Assembly: GCF_013004105.1 (NCBI RefSeq)
Contig: NZ_CP053085.1
Span: 4,588,001 to 4,652,000, forward strand
Source: Gemmatimonas groenlandica
GTDB lineage: Bacteria > Gemmatimonadota > Gemmatimonadetes > Gemmatimonadales > Gemmatimonadaceae
DNA: 64,000 bases
Direction: 5' to 3'
Position 1 is the stretch's first letter. Every line of letters starts with the position of its first letter. The position numbers and the translations under genes are program-made. Of the stretch, positions 9,583 to 45,295 are shown one piece after another. Under the pieces are notes generated by a model. The model ran no database searches and was not told the DNA's origin. It was given only the letters and a program-made list of their open reading frames with translations.

Positions 9583-9864
9583 ATGTCGAAGCTCAGGCCG
9601 AGTCGTGATATCCAGCCGGTGACGGAGTTTCGCGCCAATGCCGCGCAGTTCATCGAGCAGGTGCAGGCGACTGGCGAACCCGTGATTCTTACCCAGCACG
9701 GCCGGAGCGCCGCCGTGCTCCTCGATGTCGAGTCGTACGAGGGAATGCTCGACGAGCTGGCGCTGTTGCGCGACGTACGCCAGGCCGAACAGCAGGTGGC
9801 GGCCGGAAAGACGGTGACGCACGCGGCGGTTGCTAAGCGGCTTCGGGCGCGACTCGGGCGATGA
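9583..9864 (+). CDS. Phd/YefM-family antitoxin
   Basis: A 93-residue protein starting at ATG 9583, with AGGAG 5 nt upstream; an upstream GTG frame is rejected because it would run through the operator. The sequence has the Phd/YefM pattern: basic N-terminal strand (LRPSRDIQPVTEFRANAAQF), then PVILTQHGRSAAVLLDVESYEGM, and a charged C-terminal helix that would neutralise the toxin. It should dimerise, bind its own operator just upstream and be stabilised by the toxin. The gene overlaps the toxin start by 4 nt (ATGA), the usual arrangement for translational coupling. Confidence 0.9.
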   Translation: MSKLRPSRDIQPVTEFRANAAQFIEQVQATGEPVILTQHGRSAAVLLDVESYEGMLDELALLRDVRQAEQQVAAGKTVTHAAVAKRLRARLGR

Positions 9865-10160
9865 AGGTGGTCTGGTCCCCGCTGGCAGAGCAGCGGGCGC
9901 TCGAGGCCGTGGAGTATATCGCGCAGGATCGACCGCGGACGGCGGCGGTTTGGCTTGAGGGACTGCTGGAGCGTGTGAGCCAGCTCGACCGATTCGAAGA
10001 GCAAGGCCGCGTGGTGAGTGAAATCGGCATTCCGGCCTATCGGGAGATCCTGCACGCGCCGTATCGCATCATCTATCGCGTCGACGCGTCACGTGTTGTG
10101 ATTCTGACGCTCCGGCATGTGCGGCGTGCGTGGGACCCCGCAGAAGTCGACGACGCATAA
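9861..10160 (+). CDS. RelE/ParE-family toxin
   Basis: A 99-residue basic protein of the RelE/ParE fold. Recognisable segments are VVWSPLAEQRALEAVEYIAQ (helix 1), GIPAYREILHAPYRIIYRVD and the closing strand VVILTLRHVRR. The YREI...YRIIYR pattern is more like ParE (DNA gyrase poison) than RelE (ribosome-dependent mRNase), but sequence alone does not decide. It starts inside the antitoxin stop (ATGA overlap). The module appears intact and presumably serves stabilisation or stress response. Confidence 0.88.
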   Translation: MKVVWSPLAEQRALEAVEYIAQDRPRTAAVWLEGLLERVSQLDRFEEQGRVVSEIGIPAYREILHAPYRIIYRVDASRVVILTLRHVRRAWDPAEVDDA

Positions 10161-10229
10161 CGTTTCGCTGCAGCAGAGCGCAGCGATCGGCCGACGCCGC
10201 CATCGTGAATCGCAACCCCGGAGGCGACC

Positions 10230-10471
10230 ATGGCTAAGCCGATATGGTTTGGGCAGCTCGTTTGGTCGAAGGCCAGGAACATCGGAACGCTCGATCCAGT
10301 CGTTATCCCGCCAGGATCTGGACTCTACGCATTCACGGCGGACGCGGGAGAGCTAACCGCTGGCAACGTCCTTTACGTCGGCACGGCAGACGGCGCTCGA
10401 CAGACTCTGCGCACTCGCCTTCAGGTCTACTTGCGCCGCCTCGCTTGCACGCCGAGTGCCCCGCCACCAAC
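10230..10471 (+). pseudogene. 3'-truncated GIY-YIG-like gene
   Basis: From ATG 10230 the frame reads MAKPIWFGQLVWSKARNIG and then GLYAF and LYVGTA, which resemble the paired GIY and YIG elements of GIY-YIG nucleases, followed by RQTLRTRLQVYLRR. At about residue 72 the sequence changes to low-complexity Ser/Pro-rich translation that is simply the antisense of the end of the convergent thioredoxin-like gene. The frame formally runs to 10568. The catalytic Arg may survive, but the Glu and Asn of the core domain are gone. A short independent protein cannot be excluded. Confidence 0.45.
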
Positions 10472-11560
10472 TCATCCAAACGTGAAGGCAAACGCCTCGA
10501 CCCCTGCGTCGAGGAACTCGATCTCGAAGAGCCGATCGGAGATACCCGTCGCCTGCCGAATGAGCTGATACATCCGTGGTTCGACCACGACACCATTGCC
10601 GTCAGAGTCGACATCACCCCCGTGCGCCGCGCCTGGAGACTGTCCGTCGATTCGCACGCGAAAACGCACCGCCTTATCGCGCGCGACGGGCCCCATCACG
10701 AGATGCACATCACGCGCGTGGAACCGATAGACGATGCGTCCGTTCGACGCATGCAGTACCGCCGCGTCGCCCCGCACCGACCACTCGCCCGAGAGTGACC
10801 ACTGATTCAGCCTCAATCGTGAGGGCACCGTAAAACGCCGCCGCTCCCCTAGGATCAGCTCATCGGGTGACGCGAAGGTGCTCGCACGATTGGCGCCGAG
10901 GTACGACTCCGGCGACTTGAGATTGCTCCAGTCGGCCGCCGCCTCTACGCCAGGCCCGGTGATGTCTCCTACGGGGCGATCTACCTGCTTGGCGCCTGCT
11001 TCGGCAAGGAGCTCGCGGATCACGGCTTCCGACCGCGCGTAGCCGCCTTCGCCGAACTGGCGATGACGTATGCGCCCTTCTGCATCTGCGATGTAGAGCG
11101 CTGGCCAGTACTGGTTGTTGAAGGCCCGCCAGATAGCATGATCGCTATCGACCGCAATAGGGTAACCCACGTTCAGGCTCAGCGCGGCGCGTCGTACGTT
11201 CTCGACGTGCTTCTCGAACTCGAATTCGGGCGAGTGCACACCGACCGTCACCAACCCGTCTCGCTTGTATTGCTCGGCCCATGCGCGAGTGTACGGCAAG
11301 GTGCGCAGCCAGTTGATGCAGGTGTACGTCCAGAACTGCACGACGACGACTTTCCCAAGCAGCCCCGGCGACGACAGCCCCGGTGAGTTGAGCCACGCGG
11401 TGGCTTTGTCGAGCGATGGTAAGCTGCCATGGCTCAGTGGGAACGCCGTGCACGCAAGCCGCGAGGCGGACGAGCCAAACAGACCGAGTCGCGTAGCAGC
11501 CAGCGTCGAAACAGCGCTGCGAAGCAGACGACGGCGAACCTCGCTGATGTGATCGGACAT
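10472..11560 (-). CDS. Exported thioredoxin-fold protein (DipZ-like), lacks one active-site Cys
   Basis: A 362-residue protein; ATG 11560 is preferred over 11614 because GGAGG lies about 11 nt upstream. The N-terminus (VRRRLLRSAVSTLAATRLG) looks like a Tat-type signal. A redoxin domain follows at about residues 65-190 with FWTYTCINWLRTLPYTRAW. Relatives with this motif carry CINC; here Cys81 is kept but the second cysteine is Trp84. A C-terminal jelly-roll-like domain (RVRIDGQSPGAAHG) is as in DipZ/TlpA-like proteins. It is expected in the periplasm as a thiol-redox protein, but with a single Cys it cannot run the normal disulfide cycle. It follows the cupin gene by 50 nt. Confidence 0.8.
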   Translation of the reverse strand: MSDHISEVRRRLLRSAVSTLAATRLGLFGSSASRLACTAFPLSHGSLPSLDKATAWLNSPGLSSPGLLGKVVVVQFWTYTCINWLRTLPYTRAWAEQYKRDGLVTVGVHSPEFEFEKHVENVRRAALSLNVGYPIAVDSDHAIWRAFNNQYWPALYIADAEGRIRHRQFGEGGYARSEAVIRELLAEAGAKQVDRPVGDITGPGVEAAADWSNLKSPESYLGANRASTFASPDELILGERRRFTVPSRLRLNQWSLSGEWSVRGDAAVLHASNGRIVYRFHARDVHLVMGPVARDKAVRFRVRIDGQSPGAAHGGDVDSDGNGVVVEPRMYQLIRQATGISDRLFEIEFLDAGVEAFAFTFG

Positions 11561-11610
11561 GGGTAATCGCTCCTCCGCACGCGCGGCGTTTACACGAGGT
11601 CTACAGCTTC

Positions 11611-12003
11611 TCATTTCACCAGAACCAACAGCGGCTTTCCCTTTTCCACGGTGTACGTCGCGAGCTCGGCGCCGACGCTGCGGCCGACATTCTTTGCCGA
11701 ATGAGGGGTGCCTGCTGGAATGAACAGCACCTGGCCTGGATGAAGGGTCACAGGAGGTTGACCTTCGAGCTGATACTCGAGCGTGCCTTCGATCAGGTAT
11801 ACCATCTCTTCGCCAGGATGTTTGTGCTTGGGCGCCGTGAACCCCGGCGCCACTTCAACGCGCGCCTGAATCACTTCGCGACCAGCTGTGCTGAGATCAT
11901 GCCGCAGCAGGTCGATGCGCTTCACTCCTGTCTGCTGCGTTGGCCGGATGTTGAGCGCCGCGGCGCCAGCAGCGAGGACCGCAACGACGGCGAGTCTTAT
12001 CAT
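11611..12003 (-). CDS. Exported cupin-domain protein, 130 aa
   Basis: Start ATG 12003 has GGAG 6 nt upstream. The signal peptide is MIRLAVVAVLAAGAAALNI. The mature part is a single cupin barrel: GFTAPKHKHPGEEMVYLIEG carries the motif-1 histidines and glutamate, and PGQVLFIPAGTPHSAKNVG is motif 2 with its histidine. It should bind one divalent metal in the periplasm. Substrate unknown; the family includes small detoxifying or quercetinase-like proteins. It lies between the epoxide hydrolase and thioredoxin-like genes on the same strand, with a strong hairpin on the hydrolase side. Confidence 0.85.
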   Translation of the reverse strand: MIRLAVVAVLAAGAAALNIRPTQQTGVKRIDLLRHDLSTAGREVIQARVEVAPGFTAPKHKHPGEEMVYLIEGTLEYQLEGQPPVTLHPGQVLFIPAGTPHSAKNVGRSVGAELATYTVEKGKPLLVLVK

Positions 12004-38949: not shown

Positions 38950-39125
38950 GCCGGCACCATCTTCACCGCCCGCTACGCAACGAGCCGGCGTCTCCTCGCC
39001 ATCGTTCGCGTTGACGCATGTGTCCGTCGTGGACGTCGAGCGTGGGCAGGTGGTCCACGACTACACCGTGGTGGTGTCCGGCAACCGCATCGAAGCGATG
39101 GGTCCCACCGCGCGCCTTCCCCAGG
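38950..39125 (+). pseudogene. 5' fragment of an imidazolonepropionase-like amidohydrolase gene
   Basis: The frame reads QRAGVSSPSFALTHVSVVDV, ERGQVVHDYTVVVSGNRIEA, MGPTARLPQG and then diverges. This is the start of the mature part of secreted amidohydrolases (ITHVTVVDV..G....D.TVVV.G.RI.AVGP), before the metal-binding HxH. After about 39125 the frame soon ends at TAG (39191) and none of the barrel is present. A start codon for the signal peptide is also not evident. Gene remnant. Confidence 0.6.
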
Positions 39126-39397
39126 GGGAAAGATCGCCTGCGAGCAGGCTCGGCTTTACCGTTGTGTCTGAGATCGTGTGCACGACGACGTAGCGAGCGC
39201 GTTCCACGACGGTACGACAGCGTTTTAGCTTGCGCCGCCCATGCGCACGGCGCATACTCTGAACTCAAGGGTGTGCAACGTCATACCAGTTGGGCTCGTC
39301 ACATCATTGACAATACGAGCCGTACTCGAGCGCGTCTACGCATTGGGCATGATGCCGCTCGCCAAGCGCGTGTACCCTTTCGGGCAACTGGCTCGCG
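39126..39397. other. Intergenic region upstream of bphO
   Basis: No gene seen. The stretch is less GC-rich than its surroundings and includes GACAATACGAG and TTTTAGC segments; it should contain the promoter of the phytochrome operon, but no confident -35/-10 pair can be assigned. Confidence 0.4.
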
Positions 39398-40027
39398 ATG
39401 ATCTTACAGGTTTTGAAGGATGTGACGCGCGAAAGTCATTTGGCGCTCGAACGCCTGATGCCTCTGCTCGACGCGGACTTGGCGGCGGCTGAGTACCGGC
39501 GCATGGTGCAGAAGTTGTTCACGTATCACAAACCGCTCGAAGCGATGCTGTTCTCCTCGCCAGGCTTTGCGGAGATCGGTCTCGACTATGCCGAGCGCGC
39601 CAAGACCACGCGGTTGGCCAACGATCTCTGCGCATTGGGAGTCAGCGCGGACGAAGTCGCGCAGATGCACTCGTGCGAGAGTCTGCCTCCTCTCGCCGAT
39701 CCGTCCCACGTATTCGGTTGTCTCTATGTACTCGAGGGCGCGACCCTCGGCGGGCAGATCGTCACCCGCCACCTGCAGGCCAGCCTCGGGTTGACGCCCG
39801 AAACGGGCGCGTCGTATTTCAGCGGCTATGGCGTTCGCACGGGTCCGCAATGGAAAGCGTTCTGCGCACTCTTAACCGGGTATGCGGCCCGCACCGGCGC
39901 CGACACCGACATTGTCGACGGCGCCAACGCCACCTACGAGACACTGACCGCGTGGATGCATGTCGTAGACGTTGAACCGACGACCGCCAGCGGCACCGGT
40001 TCCGTTGTGCGCTCGGTACTCGCATGA
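39398..40027 (+). CDS. bphO: Biliverdin-forming heme oxygenase (BphO-like)
   Basis: A 209-residue heme oxygenase-like protein. It opens with ILQVLKDVTRESHLALERLM, in which the His after the TRE(S/A)H element is the proximal heme ligand (H14). HVFGCLYVLEGATLGGQIVT carries the distal-helix glycines, and FSGYGVRTGPQWKAFCALL is the C-terminal signature of this bacterial group. It would open heme to biliverdin, the chromophore needed by the phytochrome encoded next, whose ATG overlaps its stop (ATGA). This bphO-bphP pairing is a known arrangement in other bacteria. Cytoplasmic. Confidence 0.93.
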   Translation: MILQVLKDVTRESHLALERLMPLLDADLAAAEYRRMVQKLFTYHKPLEAMLFSSPGFAEIGLDYAERAKTTRLANDLCALGVSADEVAQMHSCESLPPLADPSHVFGCLYVLEGATLGGQIVTRHLQASLGLTPETGASYFSGYGVRTGPQWKAFCALLTGYAARTGADTDIVDGANATYETLTAWMHVVDVEPTTASGTGSVVRSVLA

Positions 40028-42399
40028 CCATCGCCGAGCAGGGTGATGCAAGTCGACTGCCGTGGGCAGACGGTGTGTACAGCATCAAGCGACATGGCAC
40101 GAGTCTGACCAACTGTGACAGCGAGCCTGTGCAAGCTCCAGGCTGCATTCAATCGCACGGCGCCTTAGTGACCGCTCGCTTGTCCGATCTGACGATTCTG
40201 CAGGTGAGCGAGAATTCCGAACAGTACCTCGGTGCGGTGCCGGAGCGTCTCCTCGGCCAGCCACTTGGTAACGTGATCAGCAGCGAGCATGAGATTCGCC
40301 TTCGTTCGATGATCGAGAATGACTCGATCGAAGGGAATGCGCTGTTCGCCTTCACACATCCCGCTCGAGCCGACATGGCTCCATTGGACGTGTGTGTGCA
40401 CACCATGAGCGGCGTGCTTATCCTCGAGTTTGAGTCGAGCAGTCGTGGCGCCGATCCGCTGTTGCATCCGGCCGGAGATTTCTTTACATCGGTTCGGGCG
40501 GCCGTGACTCGAATGCAGAGTACGACCGGTCAGCTCGCCTTCTGTGATCGAATCGCGCGGGAAGTCCGTACCATCACCGGATTGGATCGCGTGATGGTTT
40601 ACCGATTCCACGCAGACAACCACGGTGAGGTGGTCGCCGAGAGCAAGCTGGACGAGCTGGCACCGTGGCTCGGGCTGCACTATCCGGAAGCCGATATCCC
40701 CAAGCCGGCGCGCGACATCTATCAGCGCATCTGGATCAGGCCCGTGCCGAATGCGGCGGGTCCGTTGATCGAGCTGGTACCTCTGGCGAACCCTGACACG
40801 GGGAAGCCGCTCACGATGACGTATTGCTCGCTGCGCGGCGCATCCGTGATGTACACCGAGTATCTCGCCAACATGGGAGTCGGCGCGTCGCTGACGATGC
40901 CGATCCTGATCGAAGGCGAACTGTGGGGGCTGATCGCGTGCCACCATCGACAGCCGACCGCGTTCCCGCACCAGATGCGCGCCGCCTGCGAGCTGCTCGC
41001 CCAGGTGGCCTCGCTGCAACTCAAGTCATCTGATCGAATCGAATCGCTGGAATACGGGCTCAAGGTGGAACAGATCCACCAGGAGCTCGTGGCCAAGGCT
41101 GCGCGAGAAGGCGACCTCCTCGCGCTCTCAGATCGTCAACCGTCGCTGCTCGACGCGATGGACGCCGATGGCGCCGCACTGTACCACATGGATCGCTGGT
41201 GGACCGCCGGTCGCACGCCGAGCGAGGAGCAACTTGACGCGCTGGCGGATTGGGTCAACCTCCGTCCCGAATTCTTATCGTTGACGCGTCCGGTGTTCGC
41301 GACCGACATGCTCTCGCGCGAGTATCCGGAAGGCGCGGGAATACGCGACGTCGCAAGCGGTGTGATCGCCGTTCAGGTCTCCCGCCTCCGTCGCGACCTC
41401 ATCATGTGGTTTCGCCCCGAGACGATACAAACCGTGAAGTGGGCTGGTCATCCGGACGACAAGCCACTGGTGCCGGGACCGAACGGCATGCGATTGACGC
41501 CGCGTCGATCGTTCGAGCTGTTTGTCGAGTCCGTGCGCAATCGCTCCCTCCCGTGGACCATGCTGGAGATCGATGCGGCCCTGCGCCTTCGCTTGCTGAT
41601 CATGGATCTGGCCACGTCGGAAGGGGAACGCATCAGTGAGCTGAACGTGGATCTCACTAGCAGCAACGAGGAGTTGGACGCGTTCGCCTACGTCGCGTCA
41701 CACGATCTCAAGGAGCCGCTGCGGGGGATTCATCGCTATGCCCATCAGCTGCTGGAGAGCGCGGATACCATCGGCGCCCTCAACCGCGGTCGCATGGAGA
41801 GCCTCATGCGTCTCACGCTGCGCATGGACAGCCTGCTTGATTCGCTGCTGCACTATTCACGGGTGGGCCGGACCAATCTCGAATTCGAGGCCGTCGATCT
41901 GAATGACGCCGTGGCTGACGCGCTCGAGATGGTCGGCGTACGCAGGCACCCTTCCGACGTCGGTGTGGTCTTCGAACGCCCGCTTCCCACCGTGCTCTGC
42001 GACCTGGTACGAGTTCGGGAGATCTTCAGCAACCTGATCAGCAATGCGCTCAAGTACAATCGCGATCCGCATCCTCGCATCGAGGTCGGGTACCTGCGTC
42101 CAGACGAACCAGGTCCGCGCCCGAACATGCCTGCGGAAGCGCTTGGCGAAACGATCTACTACGTCCGCGACAATGGGATCGGGATCGAAGCGCGACACCA
42201 TGAGCAGATCTTTCGCATGTTCAAACGACTGCACGGCCGGGACGAATTCGGAGGCGGCGTGGGTGCGGGCCTCACCGTGGTGAAGAAAGTGGTGAGCCGA
42301 CATGGCGGCCACGTCTGGCTGGACTCGACGCTCAACCACGGCACCACGTTTTTCTTCACGCTGCCCTCGCTGGCGCAACCCAATCGGAACCGCGAATGA
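40024..42399 (+). CDS. bphP: Bacteriophytochrome histidine kinase
   Basis: A 791-residue red/far-red photoreceptor with PAS-GAF-PHY-HisKA-HATPase order. Cys31 in LTNCDSEPVQ is where biliverdin is attached in bacteriophytochromes; a second Cys at 41 (APGCIQSHG) is unusual. The GAF domain has HYPEADIP (221-226, variant of PASDIP) and ARDIYQRIWIRPVPN. The PHY tongue is recognisable by WFRPE and LTPRRSF. The kinase has phospho-acceptor His560 in VASHDLKEPLRG, then NLISNALKYN, RDNGIGI and GAGLTVVKKVV. It is translationally coupled to bphO upstream and to the response regulator downstream. Cytoplasmic dimer. Confidence 0.96.
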   Translation: MTIAEQGDASRLPWADGVYSIKRHGTSLTNCDSEPVQAPGCIQSHGALVTARLSDLTILQVSENSEQYLGAVPERLLGQPLGNVISSEHEIRLRSMIENDSIEGNALFAFTHPARADMAPLDVCVHTMSGVLILEFESSSRGADPLLHPAGDFFTSVRAAVTRMQSTTGQLAFCDRIAREVRTITGLDRVMVYRFHADNHGEVVAESKLDELAPWLGLHYPEADIPKPARDIYQRIWIRPVPNAAGPLIELVPLANPDTGKPLTMTYCSLRGASVMYTEYLANMGVGASLTMPILIEGELWGLIACHHRQPTAFPHQMRAACELLAQVASLQLKSSDRIESLEYGLKVEQIHQELVAKAAREGDLLALSDRQPSLLDAMDADGAALYHMDRWWTAGRTPSEEQLDALADWVNLRPEFLSLTRPVFATDMLSREYPEGAGIRDVASGVIAVQVSRLRRDLIMWFRPETIQTVKWAGHPDDKPLVPGPNGMRLTPRRSFELFVESVRNRSLPWTMLEIDAALRLRLLIMDLATSEGERISELNVDLTSSNEELDAFAYVASHDLKEPLRGIHRYAHQLLESADTIGALNRGRMESLMRLTLRMDSLLDSLLHYSRVGRTNLEFEAVDLNDAVADALEMVGVRRHPSDVGVVFERPLPTVLCDLVRVREIFSNLISNALKYNRDPHPRIEVGYLRPDEPGPRPNMPAEALGETIYYVRDNGIGIEARHHEQIFRMFKRLHGRDEFGGGVGAGLTVVKKVVSRHGGHVWLDSTLNHGTTFFFTLPSLAQPNRNRE

Positions 42400-42839
42400 G
42401 CCGGACAGATCACGTCCTGGTGGTCGAGGACAATGACGACGACTTCGAGACGGTGACCGAGGCCGTACGTCGCGCGGGCATCACGAACCAACTCCGTCGC
42501 GCCGTGTCCGGTACCGAATGCGTGGAGATGCTGGTCGAGTTACTCGAGCGCGGGAGTACGTTGCCGGCGCTGGTCCTCCTGGACTTGAATACGCCAAACG
42601 CCGACGGGCGAGATGCCTTGCTGCAGATCCGCGCCAACAGCAACCTCGCGGTGATACCGCTGGTCGTTATCAGCGCGTCGGCGAACCCACGCGACATCAC
42701 CACCGCCTACAGCAACGGTGCGAACGCGTATCACATCAAGCCGGTCAATCATGCGACGCACCTGGAGATCCTGCAGACCATCTTCACGTATTGGATAAAC
42801 CAAGCCGTCCTGCCGACACATCGATCGCTGAGCCGATGA
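42396..42839 (+). CDS. Single-domain response regulator (Rcp1-like)
   Basis: A 147-residue receiver domain with no output domain. Acidic pocket EDNDDD (residues 11-16), phospho-acceptor Asp63 in LVLLDLNTPNADG, and Lys in YHIKPVN. The DLN.P..DG and KPV patterns match Rcp1-type regulators that pair with phytochrome kinases. It overlaps bphP by ATGA and the hybrid kinase gene by ATGA. It is likely the direct phosphoryl acceptor of BphP, acting as a shuttle to the next protein or by protein contact. Confidence 0.95.
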   Translation: MSRTDHVLVVEDNDDDFETVTEAVRRAGITNQLRRAVSGTECVEMLVELLERGSTLPALVLLDLNTPNADGRDALLQIRANSNLAVIPLVVISASANPRDITTAYSNGANAYHIKPVNHATHLEILQTIFTYWINQAVLPTHRSLSR

Positions 42840-44881
42840 TCGCACCGACCTTCTCGTGGGCCCCAGTGACCGCCGTTTCGCCGAGCGCTGCGCGCGACCG
42901 ACGAACCGACGACCGTCGATGCCGAGTGTTGATCGTCGACGATAACCCGGACGATCGCGCCAGTCTTCGACAGATGTTGTTACTCGGGTCGGAACGTCAG
43001 TTCATCTTCACCGAAGCCGAACTCGGGAACTCGGCGTTGCAGATGATGCGAAACGCGCCGGGTGAGGACGTTGGTCCGTGTCCGTTCGATTGCGTGCTCC
43101 TTGATTTTAACCTGCCCGACATGAACGCGGTGGAGGTATTGACGGCGCTGTGCGGCAGCGACAATCTGCCCCCCTGTCCAGTCGTAGTGATCACTGGATG
43201 GGGTGGTGTCAGCCGTGGAGAGGGTGCACGATTGCTTGGCGCCGGTGCGCAAGACTATATCGGCAAGAGCTGGACGACTGCCGACAGCCTGAATCGATCG
43301 CTGGATAATTCCATCGAACGGTTCGAGCTGTTGAAGCGACGGAATCTCGCCCAGCAGGAACTGCGCGAATCCGAGGAGCGGTATCGCAACTTGTTCGACT
43401 CGCTCAACGAGTGCCTGTTCGTCGTCGAGAAGCTTGACGTTGCGTTGGGCGAACCCGTCGATTTCCGCTATGTCAGCTTCAATCCGGCCTTTCTCGCGCA
43501 ATCCGAAATTCGCGGCGAGATCGGACTGACCATGCGACAGCTCTTGCCGGATGACTTCGAGGAGTGGTTCTCGACGTGTGACCGCGTGTGTAGCAGCGGC
43601 GTGCCGGTGCGGTTCGAGCACGATGTCCCGAACACGGAGCGCGTGCTCGAGTTGTACGCATTCCGTCTGGGCGGGGCAGAGAGTCATCGTGTCGCCGTCA
43701 TTTTCTGGGATATCACGACGCGAAAACAGTCTGAGTTGAAGGTGTTGGCGCAGGCTGATGCACTGGCCCAGGCCGATCGTCGCAAAGATGAATTTCTGGC
43801 GATGCTCGGCCACGAGCTTCGCAATCCATTGGCTCCACTGCGCAGCGCGGTCGAGCTCTTGAAATTGCAATACCACGACGAGTCGCAACATCCGAAGGCG
43901 CTACAAATCGTGGAGCGTCAAGTCGGTCAGCTGACTCGTCTGGTCGAAGATCTGCTGGATGTTTCGCGCGTCACGACTGGTATCTTTCAGTTGCGCTTGG
44001 ACACGTGCACCATCAGGCAGATCGTCGAGAATGCCGTGACCACGACCCACGCGCTCGCGCTGGAACGCGGGCAGTCGCTCACGGTTGCCATACCGACCAA
44101 AGAGTTGCATTTGAAGGCCGATGCGGCGCGGTTGGAACAGGTCGTCGTCAACCTGTTGAACAATGCCGTCAAGTACACCGACGCGGGCGGCGGCATCTGG
44201 TTGACGGTCGAGGAAGATGGCGATGTGGTGGTGTTGCGAGTGCGCGACACGGGAATCGGTATCGCACCCGAACTCTTGCCTCGCATCTTCGACTTGTTCA
44301 GCCAGGCTGAACAATCACTCGATCGGTCGGAAGGCGGCTTGGGCGTCGGCTTGAGCCTCGTGCGACGACTGGTCGAGCTGCATGAGGGCAGTATCGAGGT
44401 TTCAAGCACGTTGGGATACGGTAGTGAGTTTGTCGTTCGGCTACCGTTGAGCGCCGCGCCTGTTGAGCGCGCACCGACGCAATCACCTGCCAAGGTCGCA
44501 CCCGTCAGTGTTAAACGACGTGTTCGAATTCTTCTGGTAGATGACAACGTGGACGCGGCGGAGAGCCTCGGAATGCTGCTTACGGCGACGGGGCATGACG
44601 TCCGGTTGGCGCACGACGGTCAGGCGGCACTCGCCGTAGCTCTCGCCCATCCACCTCAGGTCGTCCTGCTGGACATCGGGCTGCCCCTGCTGGACGGATA
44701 CGAGGTCGCGAGGCGATTGCGGCTACAGGACGGTCTCTCGAACGTCGTGATCGTGGCCACGACGGGATATGGTCACGCGCGCGATCGCGAACTGTCCACG
44801 AGCGCAGGGTTCGACCGTCATCTGCTGAAACCGGTGAATCTCGCGGCGGTGCAGAACATCCTTTCGGAGTTGATCGCCTAA
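42836..44881 (+). CDS. Hybrid histidine kinase, REC-PAS-HisKA-HATPase-REC
   Basis: A 681-residue soluble hybrid kinase. The N-terminal receiver (about 29-155) has Asp90 in VLLDFNLPDMNAVE; a PAS-like domain follows after ESEERYRNLFDSLNECLFVV (about 180-300). HisKA has His326 in FLAMLGHELRNPLAPLRSAV, and HATPase_c has VVNLLNNAVKY, RDTGIGI and GLGVGLSLVRRLVEL. The C-terminal receiver has Asp613 in VVLLDIGLPLLDGYE. The ATG overlaps the previous stop. With receivers at both ends it can both accept phosphate and pass it on, extending BphP signalling; no DNA-binding output gene is adjacent. Confidence 0.95.
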   Translation: MIAPTFSWAPVTAVSPSAARDRRTDDRRCRVLIVDDNPDDRASLRQMLLLGSERQFIFTEAELGNSALQMMRNAPGEDVGPCPFDCVLLDFNLPDMNAVEVLTALCGSDNLPPCPVVVITGWGGVSRGEGARLLGAGAQDYIGKSWTTADSLNRSLDNSIERFELLKRRNLAQQELRESEERYRNLFDSLNECLFVVEKLDVALGEPVDFRYVSFNPAFLAQSEIRGEIGLTMRQLLPDDFEEWFSTCDRVCSSGVPVRFEHDVPNTERVLELYAFRLGGAESHRVAVIFWDITTRKQSELKVLAQADALAQADRRKDEFLAMLGHELRNPLAPLRSAVELLKLQYHDESQHPKALQIVERQVGQLTRLVEDLLDVSRVTTGIFQLRLDTCTIRQIVENAVTTTHALALERGQSLTVAIPTKELHLKADAARLEQVVVNLLNNAVKYTDAGGGIWLTVEEDGDVVVLRVRDTGIGIAPELLPRIFDLFSQAEQSLDRSEGGLGVGLSLVRRLVELHEGSIEVSSTLGYGSEFVVRLPLSAAPVERAPTQSPAKVAPVSVKRRVRILLVDDNVDAAESLGMLLTATGHDVRLAHDGQAALAVALAHPPQVVLLDIGLPLLDGYEVARRLRLQDGLSNVVIVATTGYGHARDRELSTSAGFDRHLLKPVNLAAVQNILSELIA

Positions 44882-44941: not shown

Positions 44942-45295
44942 CTACGCCGAGATCCTCTTCGCGCGTTGCGCATCTCGGGCGAGTAGTGTCTCGCCCCAGC
45001 GACGCATGCCATCGAACATGTCGTGGAGTGCCTCGCCGAGCGCCGTCAGGCGGTACTCCACGTGATTGCCGCTCGCGTCGAGCAGCCGTCGCTCGATGAC
45101 GCCGTCCGCTTCCAGCTCGCGCAACTGGCGCACGAGCACGCGTTCAGCGCAGCCCGCCATTCGTTGTCGCAGCACGCTGTACCGTGCCGGGCCATCGAGC
45201 AGCCCATAGAGGATCATCGACTTCCAGCGCCCGCCGACCACGTGCACGGCGCGCTCGATGGGACAATTCGTGGTGCTGCGACGGGTGATTCCCAT
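44942..45295 (-). CDS. HxlR-family transcriptional regulator
   Basis: A 117-residue winged-helix regulator; ATG 45295 has GGAGG 8 nt upstream. The N-terminus NCPIERAVHVVGGRWKSMIL carries Cys11 at the position of the redox-sensing Cys in YodB/HypR-type HxlR proteins, followed by LLDGPARYSVLRQRMAGCAE and VLVRQLRELEADGVIERRLL (HTH and wing). It probably senses quinones, aldehydes or thiol stress and represses neighbouring detoxification genes. A 37-bp element upstream of it recurs upstream of the SDR gene at 47374, pointing to autoregulation plus control of the SDR-Ohr pair. Confidence 0.92.
   Translation of the reverse strand: MGITRRSTTNCPIERAVHVVGGRWKSMILYGLLDGPARYSVLRQRMAGCAERVLVRQLRELEADGVIERRLLDASGNHVEYRLTALGEALHDMFDGMRRWGETLLARDAQRAKRISA

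Follow-up and report, generated by a model that had tools for sequence, protein, structure and literature searches.

The window, by which we mean the whole stretch of 64,000 nucleotides of Gemmatimonas groenlandica DNA that was analysed, holds on its forward strand at 39398-44881 a row of four genes, bphO-bphP-RR-HHK, in which RR is a single-domain response regulator and HHK a REC-PAS-HisKA-HATPase-REC hybrid kinase. The genes, their junctions, one codon in bphP and a convergent neighbour are as follows.

39398..40027, + strand: bphO, biliverdin-forming heme oxygenase, 209 aa (Pfam Heme_oxygenase PF01126, E=3.6e-14)
40024..40027, + strand: ATGA overlap of bphO and bphP (read in the sequence)
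40024..42399, + strand: bphP, PAS-GAF-PHY-HisKA-HATPase bacteriophytochrome, 791 aa (Pfam domains, conserved residues)
40852..40854, + strand: codon TAC for BphP Tyr277, at the position of the DrBphP pocket residue His260 (sequence and alignment)
42396..42399, + strand: ATGA overlap of bphP and RR (read in the sequence)
42396..42839, + strand: RR, single-domain Rcp-type response regulator, 147 aa, receiver Asp63 (Response_reg 6.6e-12)
42836..42839, + strand: ATGA overlap of RR and HHK (read in the sequence)
42836..44881, + strand: HHK, REC(Asp90)-PAS-HisKA(His326)-HATPase-REC(Asp613), 681 aa (Pfam domains, residues)
44942..45295, - strand: HxlR-type regulator, convergent neighbour outside the operon (PF01638, 6.6e-26)

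The sequence-only reading had described four genes joined by 4-nt ATGA overlaps, and the gene calls, the Pfam domains and the junction sequences bear this out for all three junctions. The triple ATGA overlap is also present in two related Gemmatimonadaceae genomes and in three Burkholderiaceae genomes, including Polaromonas, and because the pattern recurs in six genomes in total, a chance origin of the overlaps is ruled out. Elsewhere in Gemmatimonadota the four-gene order is found in the same two related Gemmatimonadaceae genomes and in G244. A scan for promoters and terminators gave no signal above chance, and the G+C content of the operon is 60.0-62.4% compared to 64.3% for the whole window. 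That these genes form a light-controlled operon for multi-protein phosphotransfer is well supported. The earlier statement that no DNA-binding gene is adjacent does not hold, as the HxlR-type regulator gene adjoins the operon at 44942-45295; since it lies on the opposite strand and is convergent, it is not a member of the operon. None of the 29 other genomes of the genus has a match to it at E<=1e-25.

BphP matches PAS_2 (4.5e-22), GAF (5.5e-17), PHY (8.9e-53) and HATPase_c (3.8e-23) over the Pfam cutoffs, and although HisKA stays below its cutoff (4.9e-5), phmmer yields a full-length alignment to 8uph, and the protein has the photosensor-kinase fusion of an HK-type BphP. The bilin attachment residue Cys31 is N-terminal, upstream of the PAS domain, at a position aligned in nearly all BphPs. 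Also retained are the DIP motif (Asp224-Ile-Pro), the PRxSF motif of the tongue (Pro493-Arg-x-Ser), the ring-D His307, which corresponds to DrBphP His290, and the phospho-acceptor His560. The residue at H+1 is Asp561, as in the kinase-active Agp1, and that at H+4 is Glu, as in the phosphatase DrBphP, which carries His533 at H+1, shows no detectable kinase activity and requires its H+4 Glu for phosphatase activity (PMC8292422). By comparison with these two proteins, the combination predicts Agp1-like kinase competence and a possible DrBphP-like phosphatase activity (PMC8292422).

With the PHY profile, bphP is the sole PHY-domain gene in the G. groenlandica genome. Strain TET16 is an aerobic anoxygenic phototroph, and Table 2 of its genome paper lists BphO QJR37606 and BphP QJR37607 together with a second BphP, QJR35953 (PMC7844134). 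Judged only by the consecutive order of the accessions, the first two are probably the bphO and bphP of the window. Because the profile finds one PHY domain genome-wide, QJR35953 is probably not a full phytochrome.

The best PDB matches of RR are RcpB (1k66, 2.1e-26), DrRR (6xvu) and a Ramlibacter regulator (5ic5), with 96 bits for the cyanobacterial RcpB versus 61 bits for 5ic5. Its alignments with RcpB, 4zyl and DrRR extend to residue 140 or beyond and include an Rcp-like C-terminal extension, such that RR has all that marks the Rcp type, namely a single REC, the extension and a gene next to that of a phytochrome kinase. The catalytic residues Asp11, Asp63, Ser93 and Lys115 are present, the acidic position 11 being read from the motif VEDNDDD (Glu-Asp at residues 10-11). 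As for HHK, Pfam confirms the two REC domains, HisKA (2.3e-15) and HATPase_c (2.5e-31) of the domain order that had been read from the sequence, while the PAS domain is sub-threshold (PAS_4 2.2e-4, with the region scanned alone) but clear in the Polaromonas orthologue, which passes (4.3e-8). Asp90 and Asp613 had been named as the receiver aspartates, and inspection of the residues agrees: Asp90 occurs with Thr120 and Lys144, and Asp613 with Thr643 and Lys665, in addition to the kinase His326. Pfam gave no HWE match in HHK, the type of core that ExsG has, and the domain scan revealed no DNA-binding domain of the kind found in the third components of the Rfp and Rca systems.

It had been proposed that a phytochrome operon of this kind is a richer layout than the known bphO-bphP and phytochrome-Rcp1-type pairs. 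However, this layout is already published, for Ramlibacter tataouinensis as hmuO-bphP1-cheY-hybrid kinase (PMC6848086) and for rhizobia as BphP1-AgR-ExsG (PMC1552090, PMC3899027), and the four-gene operon is of a known type. As in operons of the Ramlibacter and NT-26 type, bphP-RR is immediately followed, in the same orientation, by a gene for a kinase with an N-terminal REC (N-REC). The putative R. tataouinensis operon hmuO-RtBphP1-RtBRR(cheY)-RtBHK ends in an atypical hybrid kinase, the loss of which gives the same rod-division phenotype as the loss of either BphP (PMC6848086). All four of its genes agree with those of the window in type and order, but it is probably outside the window's clade, as its regulator (5ic5) matches the window RR with fewer bits than the cyanobacterial RcpB does. 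In Agrobacterium, agp1, AgR and ExsG form one operon (PMC1552090), and in Rhizobium NT-26 the BphP1 kinase phosphorylates AgR and, directly and in parallel, Asp62 in the N-terminal REC of ExsG; the phospho-REC inhibits ExsG and so keeps it from phosphorylating ExsF (PMC3899027). These operons share with the window the succession of phytochrome, small regulator and N-terminal-REC kinase, and the branched path has biochemistry there, phosphorylation of the N-terminal REC by the phytochrome kinase having been shown for NT-26 only. ExsG has an HWE core, lacks PAS and C-terminal REC domains and relies on the separate ExsF to accept phosphate, whereas in HHK the core is of the HisKA type and a C-terminal REC is part of the protein. 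HHK is not an ExsG and would at most work in an ExsG-like manner, and since ExsG is an HWE kinase without a C-terminal REC, its inhibition by phospho-REC may not transfer to HHK.

The pairs Cph1-Rcp1, CphB-RcpB and DrBphP-DrRR likewise consist of a phytochrome kinase and an Rcp-type regulator, and the window RR aligns lengthwise to RcpB (1k66), but publications describe them as two-component pairs, whereas the window has a third gene. RfpA-RfpC-RfpB (FaRLiP) and RcaE-RcaF-RcaC are multi-step phytochrome relays of cyanobacteria in which a small REC protein takes part (PMC4390838). They resemble the window in joining a phytochrome-class kinase, a CheY-like regulator and a multi-REC third protein, some with a REC at each end, yet their third protein is a DNA-binding regulator (PMC4390838), whereas that of the window is a kinase.

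From these comparisons we favor, with some reserve, the reading that the operon was gained horizontally, that its genes are translationally coupled and that it serves as a red/far-red two-component branch point of the BphP-Rcp-(N-REC kinase) kind. BphO would make biliverdin, BphP is predicted to bind it at Cys31, and light would shift the kinase/phosphatase balance of BphP at His560. Phosphate would then pass from BphP in parallel to Asp63 of RR and to Asp90 in the N-terminal REC of HHK, the state of which would set the activity of the HHK core, with phospho-REC inhibiting it if ExsG is a valid guide. His326 of HHK would in turn feed its own C-terminal REC at Asp613, a regulator elsewhere, or both. 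For the window operon the genes, the intact catalytic residues, the conserved overlaps and the co-inheritance are established, while the NT-26 precedent and the co-evolution described below point to direct transfer from BphP to Asp90 and to a branched path.

Across 17 triads of the clade to which the window BphP belongs, the distances of the N-terminal REC (RECn) and of RR correlate with those of the photosensor at r=0.93 and 0.92, compared to 0.62 for the HHK kinase core; the difference between RECn and core is 0.14 to 0.48 when the taxa are resampled, a descriptive range as the taxa are related. Within one operon the distance correlations are high for all parts, and controlling for the photosensor leaves little signal (partial r of 0.31 for RECn-kinase versus 0.27 for core-kinase), therefore the co-evolution supports but does not prove direct BphP-to-RECn transfer and a role of the N-terminal REC as a conserved input port. 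Behind one type of RECn we find two types of kinase core. One set, with 46-95% internal identity, comprises the window, genus code g18, Polaromonas and Schlesneria; the other, with 48-80%, comprises the Burkholderiales/Methylococcaceae. Identity between the sets is about 29-36%, and L134 belongs to neither. L042, the photosensor sister of the window, has the other core type, at 35% identity to the window compared to 62% for RECn. In the window's clade the N-REC has kept step with the phytochrome, whereas the kinase core has been exchanged. Other parts vary too: the HHK PAS is absent in G281, the C-terminal REC is absent in L044 and L051, and cyanobacterial third genes have extra sensory domains in the middle. 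The third gene would then act as a socket, its N-terminal REC, fitted with exchangeable kinase modules.

That the phytochrome feeds the hybrid kinase through its own regulator, as the sequence-only reading had it, is disfavored by the direct N-REC phosphorylation in NT-26 and by L049, a single metagenome contig of Methylococcaceae in which HHK directly follows bphP with no RR between them. In such a linear relay BphP would give phosphate to RR, and RR would reach HHK by binding or through an HPt shuttle. The gene order bphP-RR-HHK and the conserved overlaps fit this path, as do the multi-step Rca and Rfp relays with their small REC protein (PMC4390838), but a genome-wide search of G. groenlandica with Pfam Hpt found no small stand-alone HPt to serve as the shuttle, every match lying in an open frame of at least 380 aa. 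Asp-to-Asp transfer is not known to be an established step in such pathways. Given the NT-26 biochemistry, the core-swap pattern, the lack of a stand-alone HPt and the missing RR of L049, a branched path from BphP to RR and from BphP to HHK appears more likely than the linear one, which we consider improbable.

A similarly small chance is given to the two outputs sharing a promoter but no phosphate, with a BphP-RR light pathway merely co-expressed with an independent, PAS-sensing HHK. Such independence would suit an HHK that has a PAS of its own next to a full kinase-REC cassette and whose core is exchanged among relatives; on the other hand, the N-terminal REC is retained in 41 loci from six phyla despite variation in core, PAS and C-terminal REC, and in G281, where the PAS is absent, a signal of HHK's own is non-essential. 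Less likely still, the main role of BphP could be to remove phosphate, under the control of light, from RR~P and HHK Asp90~P in the manner of DrBphP and DrRR, with phosphate coming from HHK or small-molecule donors. The Glu at H+4, needed in DrBphP for phosphatase activity (PMC8292422), agrees with such a role, but Asp561 at H+1 is the residue of the kinase Agp1, and DrBphP, with His533 there, has no detectable kinase activity.

In L042, L048, L049, L052, L131 and L133, which have the second core type, a fifth gene encoding a REC and a PAS-like tail directly follows HHK, and reaction-centre genes are present in each of the genomes tested among them, G396 (L048), G490 (L131) and G752 (L133). 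An output via this gene was considered and rejected, as in several Burkholderiales relatives it has no DNA-binding domain and the window has no fifth gene.

PHY-domain genes occur in 21 of the 395 Gemmatimonadota genomes examined, and the BphP type of the window in 3 of 179 Gemmatimonadaceae genomes, namely G. groenlandica itself and two genomes with genus code g18, whose BphPs are 89-90% identical to the window's; one of the two is the Greenland MAG ES-bin-51 (L041). The BphP of G244, the fourth genome with the gene order, is about 42-44% identical. All four genomes have reaction-centre genes (PufL/PufM-type at 2.084-2.086 Mb in G. groenlandica), compared to 44/179 family-wide, and so do 13 of the 16 PHY-bearing genomes of the family, although these are related and not independent. 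Among Pseudomonadota, the same BphP type is found both with reaction-centre genes (G396, G490, G752, G473) and without them (Polaromonas G395 and G399, G736, Methylococcaceae G397), therefore the operon is not bound to photosynthesis generally. For aerobic phototrophic Gemmatimonadaceae it offers a testable light input.

As to the origin of the operon, in a rapidly inferred maximum-likelihood tree (103 photosensors, SH-aLRT support, no bootstrap) the window, L024 and L025 group with the beta-proteobacterial L042 (SH-aLRT 99) inside an otherwise all-Pseudomonadota group. The window BphP is 64-70% identical to those of Pseudomonadota versus 42-44% to the nearest other Gemmatimonadota BphP. Both the identities and the nesting of the window clade among Pseudomonadota make a native Gemmatimonadota origin less likely, and the simplest reading of these sequence relationships, of the slightly lower G+C content and of the flanking genes is that the operon was probably acquired horizontally from Pseudomonadota. 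These flanking genes, beta-lactamase-like and HxlR, are themselves almost without counterparts in 29 other genomes of the genus, which left no well-defined empty site for comparison. Upstream of bphO, at about 38998-39137, a short frame, SFALTHVSVVDVERGQVVHDYTVVVSGNRIEAMGP, resembles the truncated beginning of an amidohydrolase and is possibly a remnant at an insertion boundary.

In a domain map of the loci collected, those of the form bphP-RR-(REC...kinase) number 41 and span six phyla: Gemmatimonadota, Pseudomonadota, Myxococcota, Planctomycetota, Cyanobacteriota and Chloroflexota. The triad of phytochrome, small regulator and N-REC kinase, previously discussed organism by organism, is thus shared by six phyla or more, and many bphP-rcp pairs of cyanobacteria are followed by a third gene. 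Of the HK-type bphP loci that have 3.5 kb or more of downstream sequence, in a sample of the closest BphP relatives and not a random one, 38 have the triad, 17 RR only and 16 neither. The 38 are a lower bound, as the kinase profile misses HWE cores: Shinella L110, with a REC and HWE kinase in the same slot, and Niveispirillum L099, with a third gene of the same kind, are counted among the 17. Three loci deserve separate mention. In L049 (2480-2640), bphP ends in a run of twelve G, and the absence of RR could reflect either genuine loss or an error of assembly. In L050, which comes from a MAG titled Klebsiella pneumoniae, the same type of operon is present but its bphP frame is split; the MAG is most likely a mislabelled or mixed bin. 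L037 (G288; 9741-11795 and 9819-10256 in reversed orientation), from another member of the same class, is a rearranged form of the module: bphP, bphO and a REC-kinase share one strand, and a small REC gene occupies the other strand at the same place.

The part that in our view most deserves the attention of specialists, more than the operon itself, is a residue in the chromophore pocket. The pocket motif in the GAF domain of BphP reads RGASVMYTEYLANMGV, compared to the usual RSVSPxHxEYLxNMGV. BphP numbering exceeds that of DrBphP by 17, an offset that is constant for Asp207, Arg254, Ser257, Tyr263 and His290 (DrBphP numbers per PMC7164956), which therefore places Tyr277 at the position of DrBphP His260, a residue called 'strictly conserved' (PMC7164956). 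The window protein thus departs from HK-type BphPs at the His260 position, and because all other tested sequence features are present, we would class it as a variant BphP. It does not stand alone: Tyr occupies this position in 22 of the 23 members of one clade of the tree (SH-aLRT 100), with Herminiimonas L091, which has His, as the exception, and in 0 of the 80 remaining sequences. The residue is present in the window, L024, L025/L041, L042-L055, L080 and L131-L134, and the clade spans Gemmatimonadota, Pseudomonadota, Myxococcota and Planctomycetota. Its distribution would itself question His260 as a defining feature of BphPs. Two cyanobacterial proteins, also without the bilin Cys, have Cys at the His260 position.

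The equivalent of His260 has been tied to proton re-uptake and chromophore pKa in Agp1, where it is His250, and in Cph1 (PMC12961729). We give slightly less than an even chance to the joint reading that the Tyr clade exchanged the proton-shuttling His260 for Tyr and so has an altered photocycle, for example in chromophore pKa, proton release and re-uptake or dark reversion, that still drives a branch point of RR and N-REC kinase. If this holds, nature can do without a residue that has been regarded as strictly necessary. A natural His-to-Tyr clade would test the role of His260 in proton transfer and chromophore pKa without artificial mutants. Tyr277 might also impair photoconversion, a point against the branch-point reading. 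A literature search found no description of Tyr-clade BphPs, which is weak evidence of novelty as it covered open-licence papers only. The variant is unlikely in RtBphP1 of R. tataouinensis because the Ramlibacter regulator 5ic5 is distant from the window RR. A natural pocket variant on record is SaBphP1 of Stigmatella aurantiaca, in which the ring-D His is absent and Thr289 takes its place (PMC6126659). Both it and the window BphP are natural BphPs missing one conserved pocket His; however, SaBphP1 is without the ring-D His, whereas the window BphP retains that residue as His307 and is without His at the His260 position.
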